Shown here piece after piece: positions 3,411 to 37,347 of a DNA stretch of 64,000 nt. The translations under genes and the position numbers were made by a program. Under the pieces are notes generated by a model that did not search any database, was not told where the DNA came from, and was given only the letters and a program-made list of their open reading frames with translations. The stretch comes from Tautonia marina (GTDB taxonomy: Bacteria > Planctomycetota > Planctomycetia > Isosphaerales > Isosphaeraceae), in NCBI RefSeq assembly GCF_009177065.1, contig NZ_WEZF01000009.1, positions 186,001 through 250,000 on the forward strand, given 5' to 3'. Every line of letters begins with the position of its first letter. The stretch's first letter is position 1.

Positions 3411-3613
3411 CTTGCGTCTCGCGACATTGTGTGACGATCCAGGAACCCGCGGGGAATGTTCGAACGCTCGCGGCGCAAAGTCTCTCCTCGGTGATGGACG
3501 GATCGGCAGCGTTCATGGCCTCGACGAGGGCGTTCCTGGGTCGTCATGCCGCCTCCGGAGGATCGGGGAGCAGGCCGAAGATGGACGATTTCCTGGCAGG
3601 GAGGCCCGGAGTC

Positions 3614-14069: not shown

Positions 14070-14142
14070 TCGGGAACGTCCCAGCATCGTTTCCTCCTCA
14101 ACACTCGTTGAACGTTCGGCCCCTCCAGCGGAGACACGAGCC

Positions 14143-15141: not shown

Positions 15142-15189
15142 CGAGTTCGGAGCCGCTCATCAGGTCTTCCACGAAGATGTTCATGGCAA

Positions 15190-15302
15190 TTCCTCCTCAG
15201 GCAACCGCGGGGCGAGGAAGGCCAATTGCCGGGTGAGGGGCCCACAACCGATGGCCAGGCCCCCTGAACCCGGCCCCCCCCTCTGCGATCGAGCGAGGGG
15301 GG
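15190..15302 (+). repeat. Degenerate REP-like GC repeat in the export cluster
   Basis: Contains GCCGGGTGAGGGG preceded by GCGAGGAAGGCC, resembling the right half of the element inside the GT9 gene at 55190-55259. It runs into the C-run/G-run hairpin at 15276-15302. Similarity is partial and judged by eye. Confidence 0.35.
15276..15302 (+). terminator. Strong hairpin between adaptor and protease genes
   Basis: CCCCCCTC (15276-15283) pairs perfectly with GAGGGGGG (15295-15302) around an 11-nt loop. No T-tract follows, so it may be an attenuator, RNA-stability element or REP arm rather than a full terminator. It lies 56 bp before the protease start. Confidence 0.42.
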
Positions 15303-15357
15303 AGATAGGACCGGACCCCGCTCGAACCGTGATTGCCGAGAAAAGGGCCGCTCACCG

Positions 15358-17583
15358 ATGCTCCGAGACCCCAGCCAATCCGCTTCGGTGCCTGCCGGTC
15401 AGGCGGCCGAATACCTCACCGCCCGCTTGCGGCCCGACCTCGTCGTGCAACCGGTCCCTTATGAGGGCGTGACCCACTACGTCATCAAGGACCCGATCGC
15501 CCTGAAGTACTTCCGGTTCAAGTCTGAGGAGTACTTCCTGCTCCAGGAACTTGACGGCAAGAAAACACTTCAGGATATCAAGCGAGCCTTTGAGCGCAAG
15601 TTCCGGCCCCAGACGATTACCGTCGAAGACCTGCTCCGGTTCGTCGCCCAGTTGCACGAGGCAAGCCTCGTCCTGGTTGACACTCCTGAGCAAGCCAAGG
15701 CTCTGGTCAAACGGAAGAAGAAGAACCGCTGGAAGAAGATCAAGCAGACCGCCGCGAACATTCTCTATATCAAGATCCCGATTATCGATCCGGAAAAGCT
15801 GCTGACGTGGATGTATCCCTATTTCCGATGGCTTTTCACGTCATACTTCGTGATCTTTAGCCTCGGGATGATGCTGGCGGCGCTGACTCTTGTCTTCGCG
15901 CAGTGGGACACATTCACCACCAAATTGCCGACGTTCGAAAGCTTCTTCAACTGGCGAACGCTCCCGTCTCTCTGGCTAAGTCTGGCCGTCGTGAAAATCA
16001 TTCACGAGTTCGGCCACGGCCTCACGGCCAAGCATTACGGTTCGGAAGTCCATGAGATGGGCATTCTGTTCCTGGTGCTCACCCCGGCCCTCTATTGCGA
16101 CGTGACCGACAGCTGGCTCTTGCCGAACAAGTGGAAACGCATCTGGATTGCTGGGGCAGGCATCTACGTCGAGTGCTTCCTCGCGGCCCTCGCCACCTTC
16201 GTCTGGTGGAACACCCAGCCAGGCCTGTTCAACAGCCTGATGCTCTCAACCATGTTCATCTGCTCGGTGAACACGATTCTCTTTAATGCAAATCCGCTGC
16301 TGCGATACGATGGTTACTACGTCGCCTCCGACTACCTGGAGATTCCGAACCTCCGGATCAAGTCGACCCAGTTCTTCACCTACGCGTTCCAGGAAAAGGT
16401 GCTCGGCCTGGAGGTCCCAGTTCAGAGCTACATGCCGCGATCGCGTCGCGCCCTGTTCGTGACGTATGCCGTCGCATCGTACCTCTACCGGTGGTTCATC
16501 ACCTTCAGCATCATCTTCTTCCTGTACCATTTCTTGCCGCCGAAGCTCCGGGTCATCAGCGCAATGCTGGCGATGGGAGCCCTGGTGCCGCTCCTGTTCA
16601 TGCCGATGTGGCAGATCGTCAAGTTCGTCCGCCAACCCGGGAGGATGCGCAAAGTGAAGAAGGTCCGAGCGGCGGCTTGCTTCGCCGTGGCGGCGGCCGT
16701 GATCGCCTTGATCCTGCTGATCCCGACGCCGCTGCGGATCAAGGGGACGCTCGTGCTTCGTCCCGCCAAGCCCGATCGTATTTACGTCGAGGTCCCCGGC
16801 CGTCTGGTCTCAATCGATGTTCGAGACAATCAGCCTGTCGAAGGGCCCCGTGACGATGGCAGCCCCGGCACCGTCATCGCCCGCCTGAGCAACCTCGACC
16901 TGCTCCGCGAAGTCAGCGAGTTGAACGAGGAAATCCAGGTCAACGAGGTCAAGGCTCGTGTCTACGACCAGACCAGCGGCAACAATCCACTGAACCGCGT
17001 ACTTCACCTGGAAACGGTTGACATGATCGAGCAGGACCTCCAGCCAAAGCTCGATGTGGCGATCGATCAGCAAGGGAAGCTCGTCCTGACCGCCGCCCGA
17101 GACGGTGTGGTCATGGGGATTCCGAACCGAGAGGTGACCGGCTCGTTCATGAGACCCGGCGACCTTTTCTGTGAAGTTGGCGACCCGAAGCAACTGGAGG
17201 CCCATCTGCTGATCGATCAATCGGATATCGATCTGATCAAGCAGGATTCCGAGAACTCCAAAGCCAAGGCCTGGGTCAAAATCTACGGCAAATCCCACGA
17301 GACGATTCTCAGCCACGTCGAAGAGATTGCCCGCCGCAACCAAGAGGAAATTCCTCCCGAGCTTTCGAACCTCGCGGGCGGCGAAATCGCCACTCAGCCA
17401 GACGAGGAAACCGGCGGAGCCCGGCCGCTGACCACCGTCTATGAGGTCGTGATCCCGATCGACAACTCCAACCTCTCCCTCCACCCCGGCCAGCGCGGCA
17501 TGGCCAAGATCGACGGCGGCACTGCTACCCTCGGCTGGTGGATCTGGCGGACGATCACCAAGACTTTCCGGTTCGTCCTCTGA
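15358..17583 (+). CDS. PqqD-like / M50 site-2-type protease / HlyD fusion
   Basis: 741 residues. Residues about 20-110 resemble a PqqD-type winged helix (peptide-recognition element): ALKYFRFKSEEYFLLQELDG then an ITVEDLLRFVAQLHE helix. A basic stretch (KRKKKNRWKKIK) precedes several transmembrane helices. The zinc site is HEFGH at 216-220, and the third ligand is Asp318 in NPLLRYDGYY (312-321), the standard layout of M50 site-2 proteases. More membrane helices follow to about 458. The C-terminal 280 residues are HlyD-like: IKGTLVLRPAKPDRIYVEV, a helical hairpin, TAARDGVVMGIPNREV and a final barrel. The protein could recognise, cut and hand over a peptide to an exporter. All catalytic residues are present. 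It is predicted to sit in the inner membrane, operonic with the two adaptors upstream and near the ABC exporter downstream. Confidence 0.88.
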   Translation: MLRDPSQSASVPAGQAAEYLTARLRPDLVVQPVPYEGVTHYVIKDPIALKYFRFKSEEYFLLQELDGKKTLQDIKRAFERKFRPQTITVEDLLRFVAQLHEASLVLVDTPEQAKALVKRKKKNRWKKIKQTAANILYIKIPIIDPEKLLTWMYPYFRWLFTSYFVIFSLGMMLAALTLVFAQWDTFTTKLPTFESFFNWRTLPSLWLSLAVVKIIHEFGHGLTAKHYGSEVHEMGILFLVLTPALYCDVTDSWLLPNKWKRIWIAGAGIYVECFLAALATFVWWNTQPGLFNSLMLSTMFICSVNTILFNANPLLRYDGYYVASDYLEIPNLRIKSTQFFTYAFQEKVLGLEVPVQSYMPRSRRALFVTYAVASYLYRWFITFSIIFFLYHFLPPKLRVISAMLAMGALVPLLFMPMWQIVKFVRQPGRMRKVKKVRAAACFAVAAAVIALILLIPTPLRIKGTLVLRPAKPDRIYVEVPGRLVSIDVRDNQPVEGPRDDGSPGTVIARLSNLDLLREVSELNEEIQVNEVKARVYDQTSGNNPLNRVLHLETVDMIEQDLQPKLDVAIDQQGKLVLTAARDGVVMGIPNREVTGSFMRPGDLFCEVGDPKQLEAHLLIDQSDIDLIKQDSENSKAKAWVKIYGKSHETILSHVEEIARRNQEEIPPELSNLAGGEIATQPDEETGGARPLTTVYEVVIPIDNSNLSLHPGQRGMAKIDGGTATLGWWIWRTITKTFRFVL

Positions 17584-17989
17584 GACGATTCCCGCAGGAA
17601 CGCTCTTCGCATTCGATTGCTCAAGGCTGGCCGGCTTCCCAGTGGAGGCCGCCGGCCTTGTGCGTTTCTGGCCACGGAACATTTCAACACGTCTGCTTCT
17701 GATCGCCGTCATCAACCAGTCGAGCCTTTGTCAGATTTTTTCTCAAGCTCAAAAACACAGAAGACTTTGATGGAATGCCGACTCTCCTCAATCCATGGTA
17801 GGGTAGCGACGGCCGTTCCCAGGCCGTCGCGTGCGGACATTCCCGAGAGAAGTCAGCTTGTCAGAATCGGCGAGGAGTGGTACACCTCTCATGACCCCAG
17901 CCCCGACCGCGCGTAGGCAACTGCGCATCGCAAGCAGTCGGGTTCGGCAAGGACGCCCGAGGGTTTCACGTCGACGGTCTGGCGCACTC
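17584..17989. other. 406-bp gap between protease fusion and ABC exporter
   Basis: Holds a candidate terminator at 17623-17659 and an AT-richer patch at about 17730-17775. An in-frame ATG at 17891 with GAGGAG 13 bases upstream could extend the ABC protein by 33 residues. A 48-codon open frame from 17770 has no recognisable motif and was not called. No substrate-peptide gene is evident. Confidence 0.45.
17623..17659 (+). terminator. Candidate terminator after the protease fusion
   Basis: AAGGCTGGC (17623-17631) pairs with GCCGGCCTT (17651-17659), 9 bp with one G-T pair, 40 bp after the stop. It is followed by GTGCGTTTC, only a weak T-run. Confidence 0.42.
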
Positions 17990-20221
17990 ATGAAGAATTT
18001 CGCCCGTCTCGTACGGTTTGCCTGGCCCTACCGGGGCCGATTCGTGCTGTCGATCGGCTGCGCGATGATGGTCGCCCTGCTCTGGTTTACAGAGCTGGGG
18101 GCGGTCTTCCCGCTGCTGAAAATTCTGCTCGGCGGCGAGAATGTCCAGACCTGGGTTGCCGATCAAATCGAACGGTACGAAACCGACGTAGAGACAGTGC
18201 GCGCTCGACTCAACGAGTTGGAGATCGTCCGCCAGGCTGGGCCGAAGGGCGTGCACGCCGATCATGTCGAGCAAATCAAGCAAGGGTACCAATCCGCCTG
18301 GAATCTCTATTTCAATGAGGTTCCCGAGGAGTTCCACGCAACCTCTGTCGGACCCAAGCCGTCGTTGCCGGCCGAGCAACTCGAACGCTACTCGGCCTTG
18401 ACCCAAGCCTATCGAATCGCCGAAGCCCGTTACGACGAACTCGGCCATGCCTCCCGGCTGATGGAGGAAGGGGGGCCGTCGGCGCTCGATCGCCGCGAAC
18501 GCTCCTGGCAGAAAGAAATGGCCAAGGCCGAAGGCTGGCAAGCCCGGTTCGAAGCAGTTGCTCCCTGGGTCAGTCGCTGGTTACCCGAGGATAATTTCCG
18601 GACCCTGACCGTCCTGCTCGCCCTGGTGATGGTCGGCGTGGCAATCAAAGGGGTCTTCATGTTCGGCCAGGAATTCCTGGTGGCGAACATCATGCAGCTC
18701 TCGATCTTTGACATTCGCAAGCGTTTCTTCCGCCGCACCCTGGCGCTCGATCTGGCAAGCTTCAATCAGCAGGGTTCGGCCGACCTGATGGCCCGCTTTA
18801 CAAGCGACCTCGACTCGGTCAGCCAGGGGCTCGTCGTCCTCCTGAGCAAGGTCGTGCGAGAGCCTTTGCGCATCATCGCCTGCCTCGGAGGGGCTCTCTG
18901 GCTCAACTGGCGATTAACCCTTCTGGCGCTCGTGCTGGTGCCCGTCTCGGCGATCACCACAGTCAAGGTCGGCAAGCTGATGAAGCGGGCGATCCGGCGA
19001 TCGCTCGAAAGCATGTCGAATATCTACAAGATCCTGCAGGAGACCTTCCAGGGGATCAAGCTCGTCAAGGCCTACACGATGGAACGCCGCGAGCGCCGGC
19101 GGTTCTATCTGGAATCGAAGGCGCTTTACAAGAAGCGCGTTCGGGTGGCGACCATCGAGGCGATGAGTGACCCGGTGCTGGAACTGCTGGCATTGACCAC
19201 CGTTTCCATCGCCCTGATGTCCGGGGCCTACCTCGTCTTGCGAGAATCGCGCTTCCTGGATCTGGGTCTCTTTCGCCTTCAACTGGCTTCAGAGCCGATG
19301 ACGATCGAGCAGTTGCTCACGCTTTACGTCATGCTCGCTGGCGTCTCCGACCCGCTACGGAAGCTCTCGAACGTGCATTCCAAGATCCAACGGGCCGCGG
19401 CGGCTTCGGATCGGATCTGTGCGCTGATGGACCGTGAGCCGACGGTCATCGAACGACCGGGAGCGCTTCGGATCCCCCCCCACCGGTTGCAGATCGAGTT
19501 CGACAACGTCCATTTCTCCTACGATGACCGGACGCAGGTTCTCCGAGGGCTCAATCTGAAGGTCCGTCACGGCGAGACGATCGCCCTGGTCGGCCCCAAC
19601 GGTTGCGGCAAGTCGACCCTGATGAACCTCTTACCAAGATTCTGGGACGTGGAAGACGGCGCGATCCGGATCGATGGCCACGATCTGCGGGAGGTCTCGC
19701 TCAAAAGCCTTCGGTCACAGATCGGCATGGTCATCCAGGAAACGATCCTGTTCGAAGACTCGATCGCCGCGAACATCGGCTATGGCAGTCCCTTCGCCAC
19801 AAGAGAACAGATCGAAGCCGCAGCCCGCCGCGCATACGCTCACCAGTTTATCTCCACCATGCCCGAGGGGTACGACACGATTATCGGGGAGCGTGGCGCC
19901 GGTCTCTCCGGCGGCCAGCGGCAGCGAATCGCTCTGGCTCGGGCGATGCTCCGAGACCCGGCAATCCTCATCCTCGACGAGGCCACCAGCGCCGTCGATA
20001 TCCAGGATGAAGCCCTCATCCGCCGGGCCATCGAGGAGTTCTCCCGCGGGCGCACGACCTTCCTGATCACCCACAATCTCGGATCGCTCCAGTTCGCCGA
20101 TCGAATTGTGCTGATGAACGAAGGGCAGATCGAGTCGGTCGGGACCGAGGACGAACTGCGACGAACCTCCTCGCTCTACCGACGCCTCCTCGAACTCCAA
20201 TATCACCGAGAGAGTGCCTGA
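17990..20221 (+). CDS. MsbA-type ABC exporter (fused membrane and ATPase domains)
   Basis: 743 residues, half-transporter that should act as a homodimer in the inner membrane exporting lipid, glycolipid or peptide. Membrane domain residues 1-470: after TM1 (about 17-45) there is an extra extracytoplasmic, helix-rich insert (about 49-203) before TM2, much longer than usual in this family. ATPase domain: Walker A GPNGCGKST, Q-loop VIQETILFED, signature LSGGQRQR, Walker B ILILDEATSA, H-loop ITHNL. All catalytic elements are intact. Start at ATG 17990 (MKNFARLVRFAWPYR) matches the usual N-terminus; ATG 17891 with a better ribosome site is an alternative. It lies downstream of the HlyD/M50 genes on the same strand, but 406 bp and a hairpin separate them, so it may have its own promoter. 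Confidence 0.92.
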   Translation: MKNFARLVRFAWPYRGRFVLSIGCAMMVALLWFTELGAVFPLLKILLGGENVQTWVADQIERYETDVETVRARLNELEIVRQAGPKGVHADHVEQIKQGYQSAWNLYFNEVPEEFHATSVGPKPSLPAEQLERYSALTQAYRIAEARYDELGHASRLMEEGGPSALDRRERSWQKEMAKAEGWQARFEAVAPWVSRWLPEDNFRTLTVLLALVMVGVAIKGVFMFGQEFLVANIMQLSIFDIRKRFFRRTLALDLASFNQQGSADLMARFTSDLDSVSQGLVVLLSKVVREPLRIIACLGGALWLNWRLTLLALVLVPVSAITTVKVGKLMKRAIRRSLESMSNIYKILQETFQGIKLVKAYTMERRERRRFYLESKALYKKRVRVATIEAMSDPVLELLALTTVSIALMSGAYLVLRESRFLDLGLFRLQLASEPMTIEQLLTLYVMLAGVSDPLRKLSNVHSKIQRAAAASDRICALMDREPTVIERPGALRIPPHRLQIEFDNVHFSYDDRTQVLRGLNLKVRHGETIALVGPNGCGKSTLMNLLPRFWDVEDGAIRIDGHDLREVSLKSLRSQIGMVIQETILFEDSIAANIGYGSPFATREQIEAAARRAYAHQFISTMPEGYDTIIGERGAGLSGGQRQRIALARAMLRDPAILILDEATSAVDIQDEALIRRAIEEFSRGRTTFLITHNLGSLQFADRIVLMNEGQIESVGTEDELRRTSSLYRRLLELQYHRESA

Positions 20222-23550: not shown

Positions 23551-26500
23551 TCAGGGTGTGTCTCCGGGGGTCCAATCAAACGAAATGGCCCGACCCGCTT
23601 CGGTTTCGGAGCGGAAGTGACGGGGCAATCCGGGGCGAAGCGGTGAGAGGAAGTCCGTCGGGGGACCGGGATCGGAGGAGCTGGAACGCGTCTCGGACAG
23701 ATCGGCAAGTCCGGCGGCGAGCAGAGAGCGATCGAGGCCCTCTCGGGTCGTGACGATCCGCCGGAGCGGGCCGCGCTGGCGGACCACTTCGTTCGTGTCG
23801 GGCATCATCAAGGCGGCCCAGTAGGCGGAACGCTCGGCCTGGCGTTGGAGCGTGAGGACGCGGGCGAGCTCGGCCGAGAGGGAGTCGCGGTCGGTACCGG
23901 TGCTCGAGGAGCCCAGCCGGTCGATCCGCGATCGGAGCCGATCGGCCGCCCGCTCCAGCCGTTCGACCAGCAGGCCGGCGGCGGGGATCGGCAAGGTCGC
24001 ACCGCCGGAGGCACTCACCGCGTCCTCCTCGGCAGATCGGACCGTGGTCAGCACGGTTGCTCCCTCGTGCAAGGGCTGAGGGATGCTCAGGCGGCGTCCT
24101 CGGCGTGATTCAGAACGCGGCATCGGGTCGATCCAGACCAGTTCGACACGACGCGCCGGCCCGTCACCCAGCGGGATGATCCAGCGACCGTCAGGTCCGA
24201 TCCGAGGTCGAACCGGGCGGCCATCGACCACTGCGGCCGGTGCCTCCGCGCCGGGAGGAGCCGTCAGGGTCAGAAACGGCCCAGGCTGGGGTTGGAGTTC
24301 CAGGATGGCATGGCCCCGTACCGTCCCTTCGGGAGCAATCAGACAGGTCAGGTCAACCAACTCAACACGGGTCTTTTCCAGGTCGCTCGAACCGCCCCGA
24401 GATGTGGACGGCGGCTGGACCACCAACGACCAGCCCCCCGGCTGCACCCGGTAAACCTTTCGACTGGCATCGGGGGGAAGTGGCGACGGGAACAGGGTCG
24501 CGAACTGCTGCTCCGTGACCGCGTCGGCCAGCGCAAGCCCAGACACATCAAGGGTCGGCGGCCGATCCGAGGGGACCACGAGCCCGATGGTATGGCCGGT
24601 GGCCGTGCCGAGCCCCCAGGCGACCAGGTCGGGGAAGACCAGCGGTTGGTCATCCTCCAGCGGAAGCACGGATCGGATTCGGAGGTCCGTCGATCCCCAG
24701 ATAGGACGGCCAGGGTCGATCTCAATCCGGTCACCCAGGTCGCGCACCGCGACCGGAGGCATGCCATCGAGCTCGTACTCGGCCCCTTCGGCCCACGATT
24801 CCGGCAGAATCAGCTCGATCCGGTCCGCAGGCCCTCCCGAAACTCGGTAGCGCACCAGAGCCTCCCAGCGGGCCGACTGGCTGCTCAGAACGAGCTGACT
24901 CCAGAGTTCGACCGTGACCGCAGGGAAGGACTCAACCCGCAATGAGCCAGGTTGATCGAGCGGAATGGGCCGGTAACGACGGCGGTTATTCGAGGTCGCC
25001 AGACGCTCAATCGGCTGCGAACGGCCATCGGCCCCGCGGTAATCCACCAGGGCCGTCGTCGGAGTCGACAACAGCAACGTCCCCGGCTCAACCGTGAGAC
25101 CGGGCCATTCGGGCCAGGGAAGGGGTCGCTCCGTGACCAGCGGCCCGGGCTCCATCGGCCGAGAGCGTTCGGGAAGCCATCCGGTCAGACTGATGGGACG
25201 CACGGAACTGGGAAGGCCATCAAAGCGCAGCCGAAGTTGATCGGAAGACGGCCGATCCCAGGAAGTCAGGCCAGGGGCCTCAAGATCGATCAGTTCCAGA
25301 TCCTCCGGCACGTTGAGCGTGACCTTGCGGACGGCCCGGCCATCAAGGTCGGAGATGCGGGAGGCGAGTCGCCATTCCCACCGGCCGGCGTCGAGATCCA
25401 GTTGCAACGTCGGCTCGACGAGGCGTCGAGGATGGGTCGGTCCGAGGGGCACGGACACCTGAGGAAGCCCCGAAAACCGGGTTGCCCCGGCCACGTCGAG
25501 TGCGCCTCCTCGGGGAAATGGTCCCCAATTCTGTTCAAATTCCTGATCGCTCATCGGTAGGTTACCCGAGGCGGCTTCGAGTCGCCCACCCCAGGTCTTC
25601 GGACGCATCAAGGCAATCTGACCATCAAAGCGAGACAGACCGATCGGCTCCAGCCGGGGAGGACTTCGAAGGATCGGATCCGTGTTTGGTTCGCCTGCCG
25701 CGTTCGACGCCTCGGAACGCAGCGCGCGTCGAAGTTCGAGCTGAAGGACCGCCCCTTCAGACAACGGGGGGTCAATGCGAGCAATCCAGCGGTCGCCGTC
25801 ATCGGCGACGATCCGAGAACTCTCAACAATTGCCCCGGCGGCGCGAACCGATCGCACCGCGACCCCCGGATCGATGGCAAACCAGAGTTCTCGGACCGGG
25901 CTGGCTCCTCGGATCGTCAGTCGAGCGTCGAGCAGGTCGCTCGTCGGCAAGGCTTGCCAGAGGAGCAGGCCCTCAAGTCCGGGGGCTTCGGTCTTGTTTC
26001 CTTCCTGATCGATCCGATCCCATCGGATCTCAATTCCATCACTCGGACCGATCGCGGCTCGAAGCTCACCATCGGCTCCAATCGTAATCGGGCCAAAGGA
26101 TCGGGCGAGGGTCAGCCCTGAGGCTCCCGGGGGATCGGCCACCCGGAGCGAGGCCGAGGCCACGGGATTGATCGGCAGAACCAGACGAACGCCCGAGGTG
26201 TCGTTATCAGGATGAACCCGCTGACGAACGACCAGTTCATGCAACCCCGTCTCTCCGTCGAGCGCAACGGTTGCACGGTCGGCCGACTCTCCGATTAACA
26301 CCGGACGCGGACGACCATCAACCATTGCCTCCAGTTCGGTCGGTCGACCGATCGGCAAGGACCACATGGCCGGCCCTTCCTGCTCAAATCGCAAGGTGAG
26401 CCGGGATTCCAGACGCCAGCCTTCCTCCGCGTCTGGCCTGAGCTCATGCTCGGCCCGGATCACTCCCACGGTCGGCCAATCGGGACGCGCCTCATCACCA

Positions 26501-29500
26501 GGACGGGCCGACGCGGCAGCCCTCAGACGCTCAGCATCCGTCTCCTGAAGCCAGACCACCGGCCCCTCTGACTCATCACCGACTTCGGTTCCCCGATCAA
26601 TAAGAAACGCGATGATGGGCGAACCGCCAGGGGCATCGGCCTGTGAAGCAGGTTGCGCCCCGACCACCGTGGCGATCAGGAGGAAGACTCCAGAAGCCCC
26701 CAGACTGATCCGAGCGGCCGACCCGCGTGGTCGAATCAAGGTTGAGGCCCCCGATTCATCCCGATCGGGTCGAGGACGACTCTGGATCAAGGCAATGACA
26801 AGGCCGATCAATCCTGCATAGAACGGACCGATCACAAAGGCGGATCGCCGAGGCTCCCCCCGTTCTCCCACCACGACCGCCCCGAGGACGACGAGCAGCA
26901 AGAGGCAGAGCCGAACCGCATTCCAACCTCGACCCTGGAACCGAATCGAGGCTGCCACAATCAGCAAGGCCCCCACTCCAAGGCCGAGCATCAGCCACGG
27001 CCACCGATCGACCGATCGGACTCCGGCATCGTGACGAGGCCATCCGCTCGCCACGAAGCGCCGAAGAATCCGGGATTCGGTCTTCGAACCGCTGAGGGGC
27101 AGGATTGCCTCATCCGAGAATCCCCCGGCGGTTGCCCGCCAGCGCTCCACCGTCCGGAAGCGATCTGACTGGTCGGCCCCCCAGGCAACAGCCTCCCGAA
27201 GTGATCGGACCCAGGTTTCTCGGGTCGGTCCCGATGCCAGCGAGGTCGGTGAGATTCGCGGAGCTTCGGCCGGAGAGGTGATCAGAAAGACGGTATCGAT
27301 CGGCACCGCGAGCAAGCCCAGCGACGACAAGGCGCGTCGAGCAGACCCGGCGGATTCCTCCTGACCAGATGGGGAAGGGGTCGGAACAATCGTGCTCGGG
27401 CCGAGGCCAAGCGCTTCAAGGGCGGATCGATCGACCACAAGCGGCCATCGTCCCACGTCCCACGAGGCCAGCGCATCGCCCAGCCGAAGCCCTCCCACCG
27501 GTTGGGTCGCCGCCAACTCGTCGAGTTGTTCCAGCATCGTGCGTTCCAGCGCCGTCAACCGGGGCAGGCGTCGCAACGAGACGCCTGGCAACCACCCTGG
27601 ACGATCCGGCCCAGGATCGGCGGAGATCAGGGCCTGACCAACCCCCGCCAGCGACCGGGCCGTCGGCCAGGCAAGATTCCACGAGAATGACAGGCACGGC
27701 ATCGAGAACCGAGGACGATCCGGTTCGACTGCTCCCGATCCGACGGTCTGAACAAACTCGACCACCAGTCGGCGTGGTCTTCCCGAACTCATCCGCTCGA
27801 CCTCGGGAAGCTGCGTCAAGGGAATCCAGATCATCCCCTCCTGCTCGAACGGCTCAACACGCCGCCCGTTCGAGGAGACCGCGGCGAGGATCGCTCCTTC
27901 CGGCAATTCGATTCCCAGTGTCGCGGCCTCCTCCGCTGCCACATCCAGCGCCAGTCGGTGTCGGGTCAAAGTGTCGGTGGACGGGGTCGAGGCCAGATTG
28001 GCTCGAAGAATCACCCCCTCGAAGCGCGAGGCCGGTAGCCTCGTGGTGCGCACGCCGAGCAGTCCGGGCTGACCTTCATAAAGAAACCGGTCCGCCAGTC
28101 GGATGGATGGACTGGAGAAGCGATCGGCCTCGGAACTCGTCGCACCGATGCCGAGCTCTCGAAAGGAGAGGTCACCGCGGGTCTCGCAGCGAAGGGCCGG
28201 ATCGACGCGGAGCGAGACGGTTCCGCGTGTCTCGAACCAGCGGGGCAGATCGAGCATGGGCAATGGGCCTTCGCCGTCCCAGGGCAGTTCCAGCCGTCCT
28301 CGGATCGACAACGGACCTGTGAGGTCCGAGGGCAGCCGAAGCTCGGATTCATCTCCCACCGAGGGAGTGACGGGCAGGGGCCTTGATTGCTGACCTTCGG
28401 CGGCCACCAACGACCAGCTCGGCCCATTCACGTCAAGTGGCACGGGACGAACGCGAAAGGGCAACGTGCGGAGGGATTCCCCTTGAGCATCAAGCTGAAG
28501 CTCCCATTCGACCGTCAGGCGATCGTCCAGGATCGTCACCCGTTGATTCACGATGGCGAGTGGACGTTTAGGGATCGGCTCTCGGACCACGCGTCCGAGA
28601 GCGTCCGGGGCGACCCAACGCCAGGAAAGAAGGGGCCGGGGAGATTGCAGAGACGTGGTCGAGGGAACGGCCGCCGGATCGAGCCAGGCAAGTCCCTCGG
28701 CCTCCACCGGGCGCAACACGACTCCCAGATCGGAAACAATCGACCAGCGCTCCTCGGCAATGGCAAGATCCACAGGGCGAAGTCGGGGAAGCTCCAGGAA
28801 TCGGATGTTTTCCTGGACCAAGGAGGCCGAGACAATCAGTTCGGGGCGTCGTCCGTCGTTGAGTGCGATCTCCCCGGATCGTGCCCCGGGCAGAGCAACT
28901 CGAATCATCCGGCGACCGTCGGGCAATTGCTCCTGTTCCCATCGAGAGGCAAGCTGCCCGTCAGAGATCCGAATCGCGTCCGGTAACCATCCCGGCGAGA
29001 GGAGAAAGCTCACCAAGGTCGGCGCTTCCGGCGGCGGCTCGACATCAATCTCAGCCTCAAGCGTATCGGCCCCGTCGCGGAGCCTCACCGTTCCCTGAAC
29101 GGAAACCGAGGTAATGGTGCGGGCCGGTGCCAGGTGCAATTCAGCCACCGGTGCGGGCCGATCGGCAAAGAAGGCCAGCGGTAACCCGTTTCGTTCCGGT
29201 TGCAATGCGAGGCCCGGGAGATCACTTTGCTCAGGGCGACGCCCGACCTCGATCTGGGCTCGCTCCAGTTGCTGCCAGGACTCAACGGAAATCTCGTCAA
29301 GGTCAAGCCGTCGCCCGGCCCGTTCCGTGCAATCGAGGAGCGACCAGGATTGATCCAGCCAGACAATGACGGGCCCACCGGTCCACTGAGCATCCAGGGG
29401 TTCGGGAACGGGGACGAGCCATCGGCTTGGGTCGTCGATTGGTGCCAGTCCGGAAAGGGTCAGGCGAGTCGGACCAATTAACCCGTCTCGCCATCGGACC

Positions 29501-30471
29501 GTGAGCCAGGTTCCCTCAGGACCAGGGCGTAGCTCGACCCCGGAAACCGCCCCCTCGGGACCGATGACCTCCTCCCAGGTCACGCCGGGAGGAAGGGAGA
29601 CGACCAGGGGACGATGCCCTTCCGGCCCCGGATCGATCGACCAGGCGGTGGTCCAGCGGGCAACTCCCGCGGCATCACCCTCCAGTTCGACGAGAGTCGC
29701 GCCTCCGATCCAGGGGCCGGAGGGCCGATCGGGGTCGGGCGCCGATCGAAGCCGGAGGACAACCGAGCCCCCCGGCCCATCAAACCGCCATCGGAGTCGG
29801 CCCGGCTCACCGGTCGGTACCGGCCCTTCACGATAGCCAGGGGGGCCGGATGGAGTAATCCCCTCCGGAAGGTCGAGGATCAACGCCGTGGCCGATCCCT
29901 CGATCAACTCCAGGTCGAAAATCCGCCCTTCGGCCTCAACTCGTGGCCGGAGACGCCATGAGATCGTGACGGCCCGGGTCGATCCCGGGCCTTCCTCCGG
30001 ACCAATCCGCAGAAACGCGCGACCGTCTCCGTCGCGGTGAATCAGGGTGCAAGACGACGGTGACACCTCCTCGACCGCGGGCGACCAGGGCCAGAGGGTT
30101 GCCCAGCGCACCGACGATCCCGGATCGGGGAACTGGAGCAAGGTTTGTCCGACCAGCTCTCCCCCTTCAAGACGGATTCGATGTTCGATCCGCTTCGGCT
30201 CGATCGGGCGGGTCGCCTCGATCAACGCGGACACGCGGCGAGCCTCCTCGACGAGCGTTTCGAACTGATCGGCTGGCATCGAGACCAGGCCCGTCCGGCC
30301 GGGAAACCACTGCTCAAGCATCTCCTCGGCCACCTGAAGCCGAACGACTTCGGGCGGAGCATCGTTGACCGCCTGAAGTGTCCGAGGCCCGATCAGCCCG
30401 GCGAGCATCGCCAAGGCAATCGCGACCGGCAGGGAGATTCGGGGGGGCGAAGCGATCATGTCGACACGCAT
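23551..30471 (-). CDS. Giant beta-rich membrane-anchored protein, two tandem units
   Basis: 2306 residues, no named family recognised. After a signal-like segment (about 6-30), residues up to about 1150 form strand-rich repeats (many alternating hydrophobic/charged strands, Pro/Gly turns). Three transmembrane helices follow (about 1157-1177, 1183-1202, 1210-1230), then a basic loop and a fourth helix (about 1254-1272, GASGVFLLIATVVGAQPASQ) that resembles a second signal peptide. A second strand-rich half runs to the end. Positive-inside charges place both big halves outside the cytoplasm. The first half plus three helices has the same architecture as the neighbouring 1159-residue protein, suggesting duplication and fusion. 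ATG 30471 was chosen; 30459 is an alternative. The upstream gene ends 46 bp before, so an operon is likely. Function unknown; envelope or surface scaffold is inferred. Confidence 0.8.
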   Translation of the reverse strand: MRVDMIASPPRISLPVAIALAMLAGLIGPRTLQAVNDAPPEVVRLQVAEEMLEQWFPGRTGLVSMPADQFETLVEEARRVSALIEATRPIEPKRIEHRIRLEGGELVGQTLLQFPDPGSSVRWATLWPWSPAVEEVSPSSCTLIHRDGDGRAFLRIGPEEGPGSTRAVTISWRLRPRVEAEGRIFDLELIEGSATALILDLPEGITPSGPPGYREGPVPTGEPGRLRWRFDGPGGSVVLRLRSAPDPDRPSGPWIGGATLVELEGDAAGVARWTTAWSIDPGPEGHRPLVVSLPPGVTWEEVIGPEGAVSGVELRPGPEGTWLTVRWRDGLIGPTRLTLSGLAPIDDPSRWLVPVPEPLDAQWTGGPVIVWLDQSWSLLDCTERAGRRLDLDEISVESWQQLERAQIEVGRRPEQSDLPGLALQPERNGLPLAFFADRPAPVAELHLAPARTITSVSVQGTVRLRDGADTLEAEIDVEPPPEAPTLVSFLLSPGWLPDAIRISDGQLASRWEQEQLPDGRRMIRVALPGARSGEIALNDGRRPELIVSASLVQENIRFLELPRLRPVDLAIAEERWSIVSDLGVVLRPVEAEGLAWLDPAAVPSTTSLQSPRPLLSWRWVAPDALGRVVREPIPKRPLAIVNQRVTILDDRLTVEWELQLDAQGESLRTLPFRVRPVPLDVNGPSWSLVAAEGQQSRPLPVTPSVGDESELRLPSDLTGPLSIRGRLELPWDGEGPLPMLDLPRWFETRGTVSLRVDPALRCETRGDLSFRELGIGATSSEADRFSSPSIRLADRFLYEGQPGLLGVRTTRLPASRFEGVILRANLASTPSTDTLTRHRLALDVAAEEAATLGIELPEGAILAAVSSNGRRVEPFEQEGMIWIPLTQLPEVERMSSGRPRRLVVEFVQTVGSGAVEPDRPRFSMPCLSFSWNLAWPTARSLAGVGQALISADPGPDRPGWLPGVSLRRLPRLTALERTMLEQLDELAATQPVGGLRLGDALASWDVGRWPLVVDRSALEALGLGPSTIVPTPSPSGQEESAGSARRALSSLGLLAVPIDTVFLITSPAEAPRISPTSLASGPTRETWVRSLREAVAWGADQSDRFRTVERWRATAGGFSDEAILPLSGSKTESRILRRFVASGWPRHDAGVRSVDRWPWLMLGLGVGALLIVAASIRFQGRGWNAVRLCLLLLVVLGAVVVGERGEPRRSAFVIGPFYAGLIGLVIALIQSRPRPDRDESGASTLIRPRGSAARISLGASGVFLLIATVVGAQPASQADAPGGSPIIAFLIDRGTEVGDESEGPVVWLQETDAERLRAAASARPGDEARPDWPTVGVIRAEHELRPDAEEGWRLESRLTLRFEQEGPAMWSLPIGRPTELEAMVDGRPRPVLIGESADRATVALDGETGLHELVVRQRVHPDNDTSGVRLVLPINPVASASLRVADPPGASGLTLARSFGPITIGADGELRAAIGPSDGIEIRWDRIDQEGNKTEAPGLEGLLLWQALPTSDLLDARLTIRGASPVRELWFAIDPGVAVRSVRAAGAIVESSRIVADDGDRWIARIDPPLSEGAVLQLELRRALRSEASNAAGEPNTDPILRSPPRLEPIGLSRFDGQIALMRPKTWGGRLEAASGNLPMSDQEFEQNWGPFPRGGALDVAGATRFSGLPQVSVPLGPTHPRRLVEPTLQLDLDAGRWEWRLASRISDLDGRAVRKVTLNVPEDLELIDLEAPGLTSWDRPSSDQLRLRFDGLPSSVRPISLTGWLPERSRPMEPGPLVTERPLPWPEWPGLTVEPGTLLLSTPTTALVDYRGADGRSQPIERLATSNNRRRYRPIPLDQPGSLRVESFPAVTVELWSQLVLSSQSARWEALVRYRVSGGPADRIELILPESWAEGAEYELDGMPPVAVRDLGDRIEIDPGRPIWGSTDLRIRSVLPLEDDQPLVFPDLVAWGLGTATGHTIGLVVPSDRPPTLDVSGLALADAVTEQQFATLFPSPLPPDASRKVYRVQPGGWSLVVQPPSTSRGGSSDLEKTRVELVDLTCLIAPEGTVRGHAILELQPQPGPFLTLTAPPGAEAPAAVVDGRPVRPRIGPDGRWIIPLGDGPARRVELVWIDPMPRSESRRGRRLSIPQPLHEGATVLTTVRSAEEDAVSASGGATLPIPAAGLLVERLERAADRLRSRIDRLGSSSTGTDRDSLSAELARVLTLQRQAERSAYWAALMMPDTNEVVRQRGPLRRIVTTREGLDRSLLAAGLADLSETRSSSSDPGPPTDFLSPLRPGLPRHFRSETEAGRAISFDWTPGDTP

Positions 30472-30517: not shown

Positions 30518-33500
30518 TCATGATGCCGGAGAGTGATCGGAGCGCGTCGGAGGAGCCAGGTCAATCACCTCGTCCCGAAGATTGGAATCGGGCCGAGGCG
30601 ACGACAGGGAAGGCGGTCCAACGAGTGGCGGCCGAGGTCGGATGGCCGTCGAGTCGTCGGACCCGACCAGCGGCGTCGATCCTCCCGAACCCCCCATCCC
30701 CGAGGCTTGATCGCTGGCCGCGGGAGTGGAGCCCAGGGCGCTCTGCTCTCCGAATCGCGGGCCGGGACGACGCAGTTCCACGGCCCGTCGGGTCAAGACG
30801 GCAACCGCGATCAAGAGCCAGCCAACCGCCGAGGATTGGACGACCACGATCGACGTACTCGGCCCCATCAGGATCAAGACCAACAGGGCCACCGCGCCGA
30901 CGATTGGCAACACGCGAGCCCGGATCGGATGCCGAATCAAGACCAGGAGGCCAAACAGCAGAACAACCCCCGAACAGCAACCCACCAACGTGGCCCGCGA
31001 GACGATCATCGCGTTCAACGACCCTGGATTTCCGGGCCGGCTGAACAGATAGCCGTGGTCGCCATTTCGCCCTCCGGTCAGGGGCGGAGCCAGCGTCTCG
31101 GCCGAGCTGCCCGGCCCGCCAATCCAGACGGCCAGTTCCGAAGGCGACATTCCCGGTTGACGCTTCCAGACGTATCCTGCCCAGTACCAGAGATTTTCAT
31201 CCGTAAACCCTCGGGGAACACCCACGAGCGCCTGATTCCAGGGCACGCGAACTTCCCAGAGCGTTTCAAACACGCGACCACCGTCGAGCAATCTCGGCGG
31301 CTGCCAGCGACTCCCGGCCGCCTCCGGAGGAAGCCGGTAACTCATGCCGACGAGGACCCCTCGGGCCGTCTCGGCCGGCAAATGAAGCAGGAACATACCC
31401 GGACGTTCCAGCGCGTCGAGGTCGTCGGATGGGACGGGTTCCCCATCGAGGTAGACGCGGTCAAGCTCGGCCCCGTACGGCAACCGAAAGCCGAGCGATG
31501 GGCCATGATCATCGAACCGAAACCAGGCGGCAATCCTGACCTCGCCATCCGCTCCTTGTTCCGACCGAAGCCAGAGCCGAGAGGCAAGCGACTTCGGCAA
31601 TTCCGCCGGTGCGGAGGCCGTGGCCGAGAACCGAGGACAGACCACCGACGCCGCCCCCGGCGGACGAACCCAGACCTGGCGGATCGGCAGCGGAGCGCCA
31701 CCGTCGGGATTGGTCACCCACTGGTTCTCGGCTGGGCGCCGCCAGCCTTCTCCCTCGGGACGAAGCTCAATGCCTGGGTCGGCGGCGATTTCCACCCGAG
31801 GAGGTGAGGCCGGACGAGGGTCCAGGACCTCGATCCGGGGGATCTCGATCAACGCCGACTCCCCCGGCACCAGGCGCCCCAACTCTTGCAGCCGGTAGCG
31901 AAGCCGAAGCTTGACGGGCGCTCCGCTGACCGGCTGGGCCAGCGTCAGGCGGCGAATCGGCAGCCCATCCGGTCCAGGAGGGATCGGTTCTTCCTGTTCG
32001 ATCACCCCTCGATCGACCAGTTCCCAGCCACGCTCCAGACCGGCAGGAATCGCCAGATCAACCCACTTCAGCTCGCCGTCGGGTGCATAGAGCGTCAGGT
32101 CTTGCTGGACGTCGATCCCGTCTCGAGCCACCCGGACGAGTTGGTCAATCGTCGAGGAGACCGTCGAGGCCCGGGCGGTCAGGGTGAGCGGGACCACCGC
32201 GGCCGGTGCCTCAAATCGGAGCCAGAGAACCCGACGCGGCAGCTCTTCGGACGTACTTGCCCACGGACCGGCTTCCAGGATGGCAGAGGGATCGGTCGGG
32301 ATGACCTCGGCAGAGGCCTGAGCCTCCAGGCCGTTCGACGGAGCCACGTCCAGCTCGGGAGGCACCGCCACCGCCAGTCGACCGCCGTCAAAGCCCGCGT
32401 CAAGCGGCCGAAACACGGATAGCTGCCCCGGCCGTTCGGGGTCGAATCGGACTGTTCCCTCCAGCTTAATCCGAAGCGGAGCCTGCTGCCCATCTCGAAG
32501 CGCAGAGGCCAGCGTCATCTCCAGCACGACGGGGCCGCTGGTCGCTTCGGAGTCGTCCGGCCGGACAAGATCCCAAGTCGAAATGGCCTCGGGAGGTCCG
32601 ACACGATCAATCTCCAACCCCTCGGGCACCTCGACCCGAAGGTTGAAACATTGGCCACGAACCGACCGATAGTCGAGCCACGACTCCACCTTCGCCGAGG
32701 CTCCACCCGGTTCGATCCGTGCAAACGATCGTTGCGCCACCCGCACCATCGGCGGCATCGGCCCGACACGAAGCTGAAGCCCGAACGGCTGATTGGCAAA
32801 TCGAAAGGCCGAAAGAATCGTGGGCCTTGCCCGAGCAATCTCCTCACGGAGATCACGTGGATCAATGCGGCGCAGCCCGTCCTCCGGATCGGCCAGAATG
32901 CGCAGGCCATCCGTTCGGCCAATGGAGAGGGTCCCGGTTTGCTCGATCACCCCTTCAAACGGATGGCCGACAAATCGCACCGAGGCCAGATCGGTTTCCG
33001 GGTCGAAGGTTGGGACCGGCCGACGGGTCGTGATCGCCACCCGAATCGACTCCCCTTTGCGAATCGTCCGGGGGAGCGAAAGGAGCCGACCCCGTCCATC
33101 AAGGGTCGAGGCCGGGGGAATGGATCGCCCTTCCGTCTCAATCTCCAGAATCTCCTCGTCCGGGTCGGGCAAGAAGACCAGGGTGGAAACCTCGCCCCGG
33201 CGGACCTGAATCTCCCAGATCGACTGAGCGGTCAAGGCCCCTTCGCTGAGATCAAGCGAAATGTGTCCTCCCCCCGTCAGAAGCGGAGGCACCGGCGCGG
33301 CCTCATCGCGACGAGGAAGCCAGCGGATCTCCAGTTCGCTGCGAGCGTCGAGCATCGCCTCGATCCGGGATCGGCGCCCCTTGTCAATCATTTCGACGGG
33401 AAGCGGAGCGCCGTCTCCCAGCGTGGCTTCAGCAATCGGCCCCTCGAGGTCGAGTTGCAGTCGGGTCCGGATCGCACGGGGGATCGCCAGGGTCAACCCT

Positions 33501-33997
33501 TTGCGGTCGTCGATTGATCGGACGGGAGCGACCACATCGACCCGAACCGTCCGCAACTGCTCCTCGTCTCTTTGACCTGGCAGGATCACGAACCACCCAT
33601 CCGGTGGTGCGGCCTCCCAGCCGAGCGGAACTCCGTCAGACTCCGCCTCTCGGGGGTAGAGCCCGTCCAGACCGATCGGCACCCGGTGCGGACCAGGGCC
33701 GCGGGCGTAAAGGGTGATGGTCAAGGAAAGACGAGCCAGGCCACCATCTTCCGGCACATGGCCAACCACTTCGACCGCGGTCACCCCTGAAAGGGCCGAT
33801 CGAGCCACGTCCTCCAGTTGTTCCCCCGATCGAACGATCACCACGGGGCTCACCGACTCGGAGCGAGCCGCCGGCTCAGCTCCATCCTCGGATGCCGGAT
33901 CTGCGTCATCCTGTGCCAACGAGGCCCCGGGAGCCATCAGCAGCGTCAGGACCACGCCGATCCAGAGAAGGTCACAATATCGGGCCACGCGGCGCAC
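30518..33997 (-). CDS. Large beta-rich secreted protein with C-terminal membrane anchor
   Basis: 1159 residues, no family recognised. Signal peptide about 1-28 (LLWIGVVLTLLMAPGASLAQ). Residues 45-1000 are strand-rich, with repeated short beta units and very few cysteines. Three membrane helices lie at about 1002-1021, 1030-1049 and 1050-1069; the RHPIRARV loop is positive, hence cytoplasmic. The last 90 residues are a low-complexity Ser/Pro/Gly tail, probably cytoplasmic. GTG 33997 is the chosen start; GTG 33988 has better spacing from GAGGG and is equally possible. It is the first gene of an operon with the 2306-residue protein, and a candidate promoter lies 120 bp upstream. Shared architecture with the first half of that protein suggests a common origin and partnership. 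Function unknown. Confidence 0.8.
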   Translation of the reverse strand: MRRVARYCDLLWIGVVLTLLMAPGASLAQDDADPASEDGAEPAARSESVSPVVIVRSGEQLEDVARSALSGVTAVEVVGHVPEDGGLARLSLTITLYARGPGPHRVPIGLDGLYPREAESDGVPLGWEAAPPDGWFVILPGQRDEEQLRTVRVDVVAPVRSIDDRKGLTLAIPRAIRTRLQLDLEGPIAEATLGDGAPLPVEMIDKGRRSRIEAMLDARSELEIRWLPRRDEAAPVPPLLTGGGHISLDLSEGALTAQSIWEIQVRRGEVSTLVFLPDPDEEILEIETEGRSIPPASTLDGRGRLLSLPRTIRKGESIRVAITTRRPVPTFDPETDLASVRFVGHPFEGVIEQTGTLSIGRTDGLRILADPEDGLRRIDPRDLREEIARARPTILSAFRFANQPFGLQLRVGPMPPMVRVAQRSFARIEPGGASAKVESWLDYRSVRGQCFNLRVEVPEGLEIDRVGPPEAISTWDLVRPDDSEATSGPVVLEMTLASALRDGQQAPLRIKLEGTVRFDPERPGQLSVFRPLDAGFDGGRLAVAVPPELDVAPSNGLEAQASAEVIPTDPSAILEAGPWASTSEELPRRVLWLRFEAPAAVVPLTLTARASTVSSTIDQLVRVARDGIDVQQDLTLYAPDGELKWVDLAIPAGLERGWELVDRGVIEQEEPIPPGPDGLPIRRLTLAQPVSGAPVKLRLRYRLQELGRLVPGESALIEIPRIEVLDPRPASPPRVEIAADPGIELRPEGEGWRRPAENQWVTNPDGGAPLPIRQVWVRPPGAASVVCPRFSATASAPAELPKSLASRLWLRSEQGADGEVRIAAWFRFDDHGPSLGFRLPYGAELDRVYLDGEPVPSDDLDALERPGMFLLHLPAETARGVLVGMSYRLPPEAAGSRWQPPRLLDGGRVFETLWEVRVPWNQALVGVPRGFTDENLWYWAGYVWKRQPGMSPSELAVWIGGPGSSAETLAPPLTGGRNGDHGYLFSRPGNPGSLNAMIVSRATLVGCCSGVVLLFGLLVLIRHPIRARVLPIVGAVALLVLILMGPSTSIVVVQSSAVGWLLIAVAVLTRRAVELRRPGPRFGEQSALGSTPAASDQASGMGGSGGSTPLVGSDDSTAIRPRPPLVGPPSLSSPRPDSNLRDEVIDLAPPTRSDHSPAS

Positions 33998-34270: not shown

Positions 34271-35071
34271 CTACGCCCGGCGTCCAATCGCCTCCGTGGT
34301 GGCTAGGGAGGCCTCGTCATGAACGATGCCATTGGAGGCGAGGATCTCCGAACTGTAGAGTTCATAAGGGCCACCGTCGAGTGCCGAGACAGTGCCGCCG
34401 GCCTCACGGACCAGCAGAACCCCGGCGGCGACATCCCAGGGATGGACGTGCGTCCCAAAGCAGACGTCGGCACCTCCCGAGGCGAGCGTGGCGAGGTTCC
34501 AGGCGGTCGAACCGCTTCGCCGAACCGAGTGCGTGCCGGTCGAGAAGCGCTCCATCAAGGCGAGTTGCCGGGGGGCATCGGCGCCGAATCGCGTCGGAAA
34601 GGCCGCGGAGATCAAGGAGCGTTCCAGGCGATCGGCCGAGCTGACCCGGGCAGGCTGGCCGTCCACGGTCGTGCCGCCTCCCAGGCTGGCCGACCACATC
34701 GTGTCGGTCAGGGGGGCGTACACGACGCCGGCGATCAACGTTCCCCGATGTTCCAGGCCGATCGACACCGTCCAGATGGGGAAGCGATGGGCGAAGTTGA
34801 CCGTGCCGTCGAGCGGATCAACGATCCAGCGAAAGGGGCAATCGGGATCGGGCTGAACCCCTTCCTCCTCGGCAAGCAAGGTATGATCGGGGAACTGCTC
34901 GGCCAGCAAGGCGGCAATGGTCCGCTGGCTTGCCAGATCCGCCTCGGTCACCAGATCGCTCGGCCCTTTCTCGCGGGCCTCGACGCGGCCATAGTGCTCT
35001 CGCAACACACTGCCCGCGCGCCGAGCAATCTGCTCTGCGGCGTCTCGATACGCTTGATACGCTTCGGCCAC
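34271..35071 (-). CDS. Inositol-monophosphatase-family protein
   Basis: 266 residues of the magnesium-dependent, lithium-sensitive phosphatase fold (IMPase, also histidinol-phosphatase HisN and CysQ). Seen: TEADLASQRTI (metal Asp), LLAEEEG (Glu pair), the signature DPLDGTVNFAHRFP carrying metal-binding Asp residues, and the C-terminal WDVAAGVLLVREAGG signature. Length is standard. The frame opens at a TTG (35107), but GTG 35071 follows AGAAAGG and matches the usual N-terminus, so it is preferred. It may dephosphorylate inositol phosphate for phospholipid synthesis; a role in histidine synthesis is the main alternative. A strong terminator separates it from the upstream gene, so it is probably monocistronic. 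Specificity cannot be read. Confidence 0.92.
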   Translation of the reverse strand: MAEAYQAYRDAAEQIARRAGSVLREHYGRVEAREKGPSDLVTEADLASQRTIAALLAEQFPDHTLLAEEEGVQPDPDCPFRWIVDPLDGTVNFAHRFPIWTVSIGLEHRGTLIAGVVYAPLTDTMWSASLGGGTTVDGQPARVSSADRLERSLISAAFPTRFGADAPRQLALMERFSTGTHSVRRSGSTAWNLATLASGGADVCFGTHVHPWDVAAGVLLVREAGGTVSALDGGPYELYSSEILASNGIVHDEASLATTEAIGRRA

Positions 35072-35114
35072 GAACCGGACCTTTCTGCGGACTCGATCAC
35101 GACACAACCTCTCA

Positions 35115-35234: not shown

Positions 35235-37154
35235 TCAGCGAGCCGGAGTCAATCGGTTTTCCTTCAGCAGGTCTTGCCAGGCCTTCAGGCCAGGCCCCTC
35301 AGGGGAATCGGGATCGTAGCCGAGCGTCTCTCGCCCGGTCAGCATCATCAAGGTATCGAGCGCGAGCTGGCGGACCCCCGCATTGGGCGATGACAGGTCG
35401 GCCACAAGCTCTGCGTAGACCTCTTTTTCTTCGATCTGGTCCTCGGGAACACCCAGCAAGAGGCGGTCAAATGCTTCGGTGGCCTCGGGAGGAGCGATGA
35501 ACCGTTCCAGGAGTCCCCGAACGTCCTCGGCGGGCTCGGTGCCTCGCGCCATTCGTCGCATGACAATTCCGATCGCGGTGCCTCGAACGGCCGGGTCGCC
35601 CGGTCGATTGAGCAACGGCATCACCTGCTCTAGTGCCTCGGGATCGGACCCAGCCATGGCTCCCAGGGCGGCGACCGACAGACTTCGGACGGTCGGGTCC
35701 GGATCCTCGATGCCTTCGAGCAACGTAAAGGTGATCGACCCGGTGGATTGCTCGAACAGCTCCACGAAGGCTTCGCCGGCCTGGATGTCGGCAGGTTGCG
35801 GCTCAGGATCGACGACCCATTGCGGCATCACGGCCGGCTCTGCGCCGAGAATGCCGTCCTCCGGATCGACACTCACCAGGGTCGGGCCTTCGAATTCCTG
35901 CGGATCGCCGTCGTCGAACGTGACGCCCAGAGCGCCCGCGGGACAGAGAATCGTCAACAACGGACGACCCGCCGGCTGTCCTGGCACCTTCAACCCCATC
36001 CACGACAGACCGACCGGCCGCCCCGGGGGTAACTGGAGCGAGAGGGTTCGCCCTTCGAACCCGACGGCGATCGGCTCCTCAGCATTGGGAGACCGGAGCA
36101 CGACACTCCCGTCAATCAAAGCAAACCGTGGCGTGTCGGCCAGTGCTGGCGGTTCCACGCGCAGCTCGGACTGAGCGATCAAGGTGATTCGAACCGAGCC
36201 CATGCTCAAGGTGGTGCGGAACGGGGCCAGATTGACGACGCGATCTCCCGGAGCAAGGGAATCGTCGGCGGAGAGCCGTTCCCAGGTCGGATTGGCCCGC
36301 AAGACGATGCCGTCGGTCTGCTCGACGACCGCCACGTCCCCTGCCGCCAGGGGAGCCTCGGGCTCGGCGGGCTCAGCGGGTTGCTCCGGAGTCGGTTCAG
36401 GTTCGGGTTCGGGCTGATCCGTTTCTTCGACCCGAGCGGGCTCTGAGAGAGGCGGCGGAGCAGGCCGAGCGTCCCCCTCCTCGTCCGCGACCTCCTCATC
36501 CGGTTCTTTGGCCGCATCGGGATCGAATTGCGCAGCGGCCAGGGAATCCGCCTCCTGAATCTGAACACCGGCGTACCGAAGGTTCAGATATCCGACCGCT
36601 CCCAGCACGACGATCAGGAGCACGGCCACCAGCCAGGGAACCACCTGTTCGAACCACGATCGTGGGACCGGAGCCGTCTTCGCCCAGGGGGCCTCGGGGG
36701 CTCCAGACACGGCGTCGGGAACCATTCCGGCCGCGGGGGGAACCGCCACTCGATAGTTGGTGCGAACCGCTTCCGGCCCCTTGAAGAGGCGATACATGCG
36801 GTATCGGGACTCAGAAGGCACCTTGGCCTTGTTCTTGATCAGGCTGAGAATCTGGTGACAACTGGCGGCCTCGGCCAGGTGAACGTCAGACTCCAGGCAG
36901 AGTTTTTCGTATTCGGCGACCTTCTCGGCTTCCAGCTCGTTATCAAGGTAGGCGGCCACGGTGTTCGGATCCACCGCCTCGGGACCGCTGGTCGGCGGAA
37001 TCGTCAATCGACGACGGCGCGTGACCTTGCGAATGCGCTCGATGAGCGTCTGGGCGAACGGGGTGCTCGAAACCTGCGTGCCAATCTCGCGAACTTCTTC
37101 CGGCGGAAGAGTATCGTCGAGCCAGGCGAGCAGCGTGCGGAGAGTCAATCGCAT
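35235..37154 (-). CDS. Anti-sigma-like membrane protein with FecR-like and HEAT-like parts
   Basis: 639 residues. The N-terminal 110 residues are helical with a Cys/His cluster (Cys in EKLCLES, then SCHQIL), resembling zinc anti-sigma domains. One transmembrane helix (VVPWLVAVLLIVVLGAVGYL) lies near 175-200. A Glu/Pro-rich spacer (PEPEPEPTPEQPAEPAEPE) leads to a periplasmic beta domain with FecR-like repeats (GDRVVNLAPFRTTLSMGSV, FALIDGSVVLRSP). The C-terminal 180 residues look like HEAT repeats (DPDPTVRSLSVAALGAMAG). The pattern suggests a signal-transducing anti-sigma factor, but no ECF sigma gene is adjacent. ATG 37154 is preferred over the TTG at 37172. Domain calls are from pattern only; a structural envelope protein is the alternative. 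Confidence 0.72.
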   Translation of the reverse strand: MRLTLRTLLAWLDDTLPPEEVREIGTQVSSTPFAQTLIERIRKVTRRRRLTIPPTSGPEAVDPNTVAAYLDNELEAEKVAEYEKLCLESDVHLAEAASCHQILSLIKNKAKVPSESRYRMYRLFKGPEAVRTNYRVAVPPAAGMVPDAVSGAPEAPWAKTAPVPRSWFEQVVPWLVAVLLIVVLGAVGYLNLRYAGVQIQEADSLAAAQFDPDAAKEPDEEVADEEGDARPAPPPLSEPARVEETDQPEPEPEPTPEQPAEPAEPEAPLAAGDVAVVEQTDGIVLRANPTWERLSADDSLAPGDRVVNLAPFRTTLSMGSVRITLIAQSELRVEPPALADTPRFALIDGSVVLRSPNAEEPIAVGFEGRTLSLQLPPGRPVGLSWMGLKVPGQPAGRPLLTILCPAGALGVTFDDGDPQEFEGPTLVSVDPEDGILGAEPAVMPQWVVDPEPQPADIQAGEAFVELFEQSTGSITFTLLEGIEDPDPTVRSLSVAALGAMAGSDPEALEQVMPLLNRPGDPAVRGTAIGIVMRRMARGTEPAEDVRGLLERFIAPPEATEAFDRLLLGVPEDQIEEKEVYAELVADLSSPNAGVRQLALDTLMMLTGRETLGYDPDSPEGPGLKAWQDLLKENRLTPAR

Positions 37155-37347
37155 CGGAATCGCTCGGGTCAAGAGGATGAGGCGAGCCGCTCGGAGGTCT
37201 GTGGCCTCCGGCTCCGAAACGCTCCCCTCACCCTTCTATCTGTGCCCCGAGCGAAGGCGATCCGTCGAAAATTTCAAAAAATTCGCCAGCCGAGGCCGTT
37301 CCGCCCGGAACAATCCCTCCGCTTTGATCCGCAATCGCGTCTCTTGA

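Follow-up and report, generated by a model that had tools for sequence, protein, structure and literature searches.

A giant gene of Tautonia marina appears to be an ancient fusion of two homologous exported units and may retain a signal peptide at the junction

A giant gene and its neighbour encode three homologous units

In the 64,000-nucleotide stretch of Tautonia marina DNA analysed here (the window), a giant gene on the minus strand (23551-30471; 2,306 residues) lies next to a single-unit gene on the same strand (S; 30518-33997; 1,159 residues). The two halves of the giant product, units N and C, and the neighbour S are homologous units that share their module order. We assign a probability of about 0.6 to the reading in which the giant is an ancient fusion of N and C with S as a third member, the helix in front of unit C (helix 4) is a retained and probably cut signal peptide, and the units form a scaffold complex. 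The homology was established by profile comparison, for which an alignment of 23 giant sequences was cut into an N half and a C half and S was represented by an alignment of 22 sequences. In hhalign, N matched C with an E-value of 2.4e-18 over 858 columns, N matched S with 2.5e-29 over 857 columns and C matched S with 7e-23 over 801 columns. All three alignments were colinear across most of the unit, and reversed or column-shuffled control profiles gave E-values of 0.04 or higher. The first-pass annotation had regarded the first half with its helices as a mirror of the 1,159-residue protein, in agreement with the N to S match, and the similarity among both halves and the neighbour lies far above chance.

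The giant reading frame, counted from the ATG at 30471, is open further back, from a TTG at 30564. The ATG start includes the N-terminal signal peptide and is separated by 47 bp from the stop of the S gene. A full-length homologue in the same genus (L031; 84% identity) has no internal stop, and dN/dS between the two giants is ~0.13 to 0.23 in each segment, including the junction; the whole frame is thus under purifying selection, and the intact homologue together with the low dN/dS indicates that it is real. The S and giant pair is present in a same-genus genome (G001) and in Singulisphaera acidiphila.

The two-unit layout with three membrane helices, a basic loop and a fourth helix, noticed earlier by eye, was borne out by hydropathy and sequence. 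The N-terminal signal peptide (residues ~1-34; 30370-30471) is followed by the exoplasmic beta modules of unit N (residues 35-1156; 27004-30369), which were assigned by the profile match to S and by module mapping. The three membrane helices (residues 1157-1176, 1189-1202 and 1212-1229; 26785-27003) lead into a basic, cytoplasmic loop (residues 1230-1254; 26710-26784), in which the sequence STLIRPR resembles the STAIRPR of the neighbour's tail, and then into the signal-peptide-like helix 4 (residues 1255-1272; 26656-26709). The remainder is the second strand-rich half, the exoplasmic beta modules of unit C (residues 1273-2306; 23554-26655). According to the AlphaFold model its last module contains a helical hairpin or coiled-coil (residues ~2164-2252; 23716-23982), and the unit closes with the strand pair HFRSETEAGRAISFDW (23575-23628), the C-terminal membrane hairpin of most relatives being absent here. 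The loop charges of the giant are +3, +1 and +3, which by the positive-inside rule place both halves outside, as the charge pattern had been interpreted before.

S comprises a signal peptide, five beta modules of ~170 residues (residues 66-230, 235-414, 415-575, 583-762 and 772-1000; 30998-33802), three membrane helices in the AlphaFold model (residues ~1001-1076; 30770-30997) and a cytoplasmic tail with the conserved motif SDDSTAIRPR (30632-30661), all encoded on the minus strand. The tail motif, ST[A/V/E/L/I][I/V]RxR, is kept in 22 of the 22 S proteins from Isosphaeraceae despite overall identities down to ~23-30%, and traces of ST-x-(I/V)-R-x-R were also seen in a few relatives from another family. 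The motif may function in docking or phosphorylation.

The helix at the junction resembles a signal peptide

The internal helix displays the n-, h- and c-regions of a signal peptide. In the window, signal peptidase I is proposed to cut after A1272 (VVGA|QPAS); VGA|Q would be an acceptable site, not an ideal one. Comparable internal sites are RPASA|RDD (L046) and TPAEA|DNP (L114). In 50 giants we scored the helix before unit C, asking for a signal-peptidase-like site with a polar stretch behind it. A good site was present in 58% of the internal helices and in 69% of the N-terminal signal peptides of single-unit genes, with no significant difference between the two, and in 25-33% of the membrane helices of the same proteins (p-values of 6e-4 to 5e-7 against the internal helix, which overstate independence because the sequences are related). 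The counts are weakened by the alanine-rich composition of these proteins, in which A-x-A motifs are common. A first cleavage-site score, blind to the region past the helix, failed to separate the groups; the polar-stretch requirement was added after the data had been seen, and the test was adjusted once. By this simple score 21 of the 50 internal helices had no good site, and in some cases the wrong helix had been picked, an error that works against the observed separation.

Naturally split versions bear on the same point. In L095, S, N and C are encoded by three consecutive genes of 1,128, 1,237 and 1,138 residues, and the C gene begins with a plain N-terminal signal peptide, MNRVIVRVCVLAACLAVVLRSAVRAEE. 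Several stop codons fall in the gap, so a frameshift error is unlikely. The same arrangement occurs in L121, again with a separate C gene that carries its own N-terminal signal peptide. Single-unit homologues, which the annotation had proposed to look for, were thus found both as these C genes and as the S neighbour across Planctomycetota. Because helix 4 has a signal-peptidase-like site and the separate C genes have signal peptides of their own, this helix is, on sequence grounds, more plausibly a retained signal peptide than the returning leg of a membrane hairpin. Signal peptidase probably cuts there.

The annotation had instead proposed one uncut chain, in which a four-helix membrane hairpin tethers two beta scaffolds. 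The topology it implied agrees with the loop charges, and a widespread fusion would be expected if the physical linkage mattered; the function it gave to helix 4 fares less well, since this helix, besides being short, scores as signal peptides do and unlike the neighbouring membrane helices. Moreover, N and C also exist as separate genes, so the linkage is dispensable in some genomes, and unit C carries its own anchor in most relatives of the same family. In the window's genus the uncut chain gains strength because unit C has no C-terminal helices there and helix 4 would be its sole anchor. We regard the hairpin as a serious rival, more so in this genus, but as less likely than a polyprotein. 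The annotation had also considered cleavage into two unrelated proteins; the products would here likely be related instead.

A precedent for the cleaved polyprotein is FbcH of Bradyrhizobium japonicum, the cytochrome b/c1 precursor, in which one gene with an internal signal peptide gives a product that is cut into two envelope proteins. The giant shares with FbcH-like polyproteins the internal signal-peptide-like segment, and its downstream unit is also found as a separate exported protein (L095 and L121). The products of FbcH are unrelated respiratory subunits, whereas N and C are paralogues and their cleavage is a prediction. In the L106 giant (G132) the internal helix, LVLLCVGLPGC, ends in a lipobox-like LPGC, which may represent a lipoprotein signal with lipoprotein-type processing.

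The fusion extends across Planctomycetota

A single-sequence search detected the giant only in the family to which the window belongs (28 of 59 genomes). With an S profile, relatives were found in at least 81 of 294 sampled genomes across Planctomycetota, a lower bound given that just two candidates were scored per genome. Among 40 such regions that were read, an S gene of ~1,100-1,400 residues stood beside a giant of 2,000-2,850 residues in many families. Since the fused form and its S neighbour occur across the phylum, the fusion is ancient and not a local event. The duplication and gene fusion that the annotation had inferred is upheld, both halves and S being homologous and alike in module order, but not as a local rearrangement.

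In a unit tree, which was built on a fast alignment and is weak at its deep nodes, N, C and S formed separate clades within Isosphaeraceae and its closest relatives (N x19, support 1.00). L095 and L121 fell among fused relatives within the C clade (support 0.92-0.93), which makes fission the simpler reading of their separate genes. Two separate genes in the order C-like to N-like were found in L103, L104, L111 and L118. In L106 and L108 the best hits agreed only partly with the unit tree, the C halves matching X2 best and not X1, which leaves an independent second fusion as no more than a possibility. In most same-family relatives unit C is followed by membrane helices of its own that have been lost in the window's genus. 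Each of the family f2 genomes (L084/L085, L086/L087 and L115/L116) holds two separate S and giant systems, and of these systems L087 and L115, like the one in the window, adjoin a gene for an inositol monophosphatase.

Each unit is predicted to be a chain of five beta sandwiches

AlphaFold2 models of S (pLDDT 84) and unit C (pLDDT 80) are both chains of beta sandwiches, and each unit consists of five related modules. Most modules of the S model match one another, and the same order maps onto C and N. Compared with the PDB, the two models matched the N-domains of M1 aminopeptidases and ribophorin I with Z-scores of 12-15. The last module of unit C aligned with tricorn factor F3 (1z1w; Z 15.1, rmsd 2.5, 142 residues), and modules 1, 2 and 5 of S aligned with M1 N-domains at Z ~12. 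Modules 1-2 of S together matched yeast Ost1 at Z 14.3 (rmsd 6.4, 325 residues), which exceeds the single-domain matches, and two modules of unit C matched it at Z 13.9.

The predicted N-terminal, saddle-like beta sandwich is thus shared with M1 aminopeptidases such as LTA4H, ERAP1 and F3. Unlike these enzymes, the window units carry it in five tandem copies and have no peptidase domain; the zinc-binding motif HExxH was absent from both window proteins in a sequence scan, and Pfam gave no match up to an E-value of 1 for either S or the giant. NCBIfam, PADLOC and PHROGs scans of the window proteins returned no useful match, a profile search of PDB sequences returned none, ribophorin I included, and a viral fold search gave loose beta-rich matches only. 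A segment at residues ~960-1085 that we had presumed to resemble the secretin N-terminal (STN) domain received no support from Pfam. We found no paper describing the family in a literature search of incomplete coverage, and it appears to be undescribed.

Ribophorin I (Ost1) has a membrane-anchored, luminal M1-N-like pair of its own and sits beside the eukaryotic translocon, where it holds or folds emerging proteins. A comparable role for the units, near an export channel, would fit either cleavage model, and the Ost1 matches of both S and C point in that direction. We nevertheless consider it improbable: the structure search found the M1-N-like fold to be common to M1 peptidases and TAF2, so that the predicted fold by itself would say nothing on function, the Pfam and PDB-sequence profile searches found no match to ribophorin I, and no glycosylation or translocon gene was among the conserved neighbours examined. 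S also differs from ribophorin I in being bacterial and in having five modules, not two, and three membrane helices. The models would nonetheless place a ribophorin-I-like domain pair in bacteria. That N and C are unrelated proteins alike in composition only can safely be set aside, because, although both are rich in arginine, proline and strands, profiles that were reversed or column-shuffled retain the composition and yet lose the match entirely, and module order is conserved between the units.

A proposed polyprotein origin of an envelope complex

In the polyprotein reading, the giant would be an ancient fusion of the paralogous subunits N and C, and the adjoining S a third paralogue. Each subunit would be exported and contribute five M1-N-domain-like beta-sandwich modules, and the helices at the end of S, of N and, in most relatives, of C would anchor the subunits in the cytoplasmic membrane. 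The junction helix would be the original signal peptide of C, kept in frame since the fusion, and signal peptidase would probably cut it as the chain is exported; a single translation product would thus yield N and C in equal amounts beside S. The three most likely assemble on the outside of the cytoplasmic membrane into a structural or scaffolding complex, a role proposed from the predicted fold and topology.

A more far-reaching version, a phylum-wide envelope machine of three paralogous M1-N-like rods in which fusion through a retained and cleavable signal peptide happened repeatedly, seems to us speculative and rather unlikely. If true, it would be a cellular polyprotein strategy that fixes a subunit ratio at the membrane. 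Planctomycete envelopes are unusual and their parts poorly known, and this large membrane-anchored family is present in at least a quarter of the sampled Planctomycetota genomes, often beside regulatory genes. The natural occurrence of fused, split and swapped units makes the role of the internal signal peptide directly testable.

Regulatory genes often lie upstream of the units

Two genes on the minus strand precede S in the window. The first encodes an inositol monophosphatase family protein (34271-35107; Pfam E 1.7e-62), a conserved upstream neighbour that clustered in 11 loci, and the second a HEAT-repeat membrane protein with a weak anti-sigma-like N-terminus (35235-37172; HEAT_2 E 2.7e-8, zf-HC2 E 0.09), found upstream in 13 loci. 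Both stand upstream of the pair in many Isosphaeraceae loci. In seven loci of other families a related large gene lies upstream of the units, at ~130 bp or less where the frame is clear. Pfam scans of two of these seven genes identified zinc-finger/VWA (YfbK-type) proteins. In all three cases tested, an ECF sigma factor is encoded by the small gene that precedes the large one. These neighbours suggest that S and the giant are regulated envelope genes, and the gene of the HEAT-repeat protein may correspond, as a regulator, to the VWA gene found elsewhere. Where tested, ECF sigma factor and zinc-finger/VWA genes lie directly upstream of the units in L108 (11614-15757), L106 (11051-16760) and L120 (477-4324).

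Elsewhere in the window, a GAF/HlyD protein is encoded close to an M50-peptidase/HlyD protein (11952-17583), with an ABC transporter nearby (17831-20221), and these genes look like a secretion set. A 1,216-residue open frame at 3335-6985, possibly coding and without a Pfam match, is overlapped by a 531-residue frame on the minus strand.
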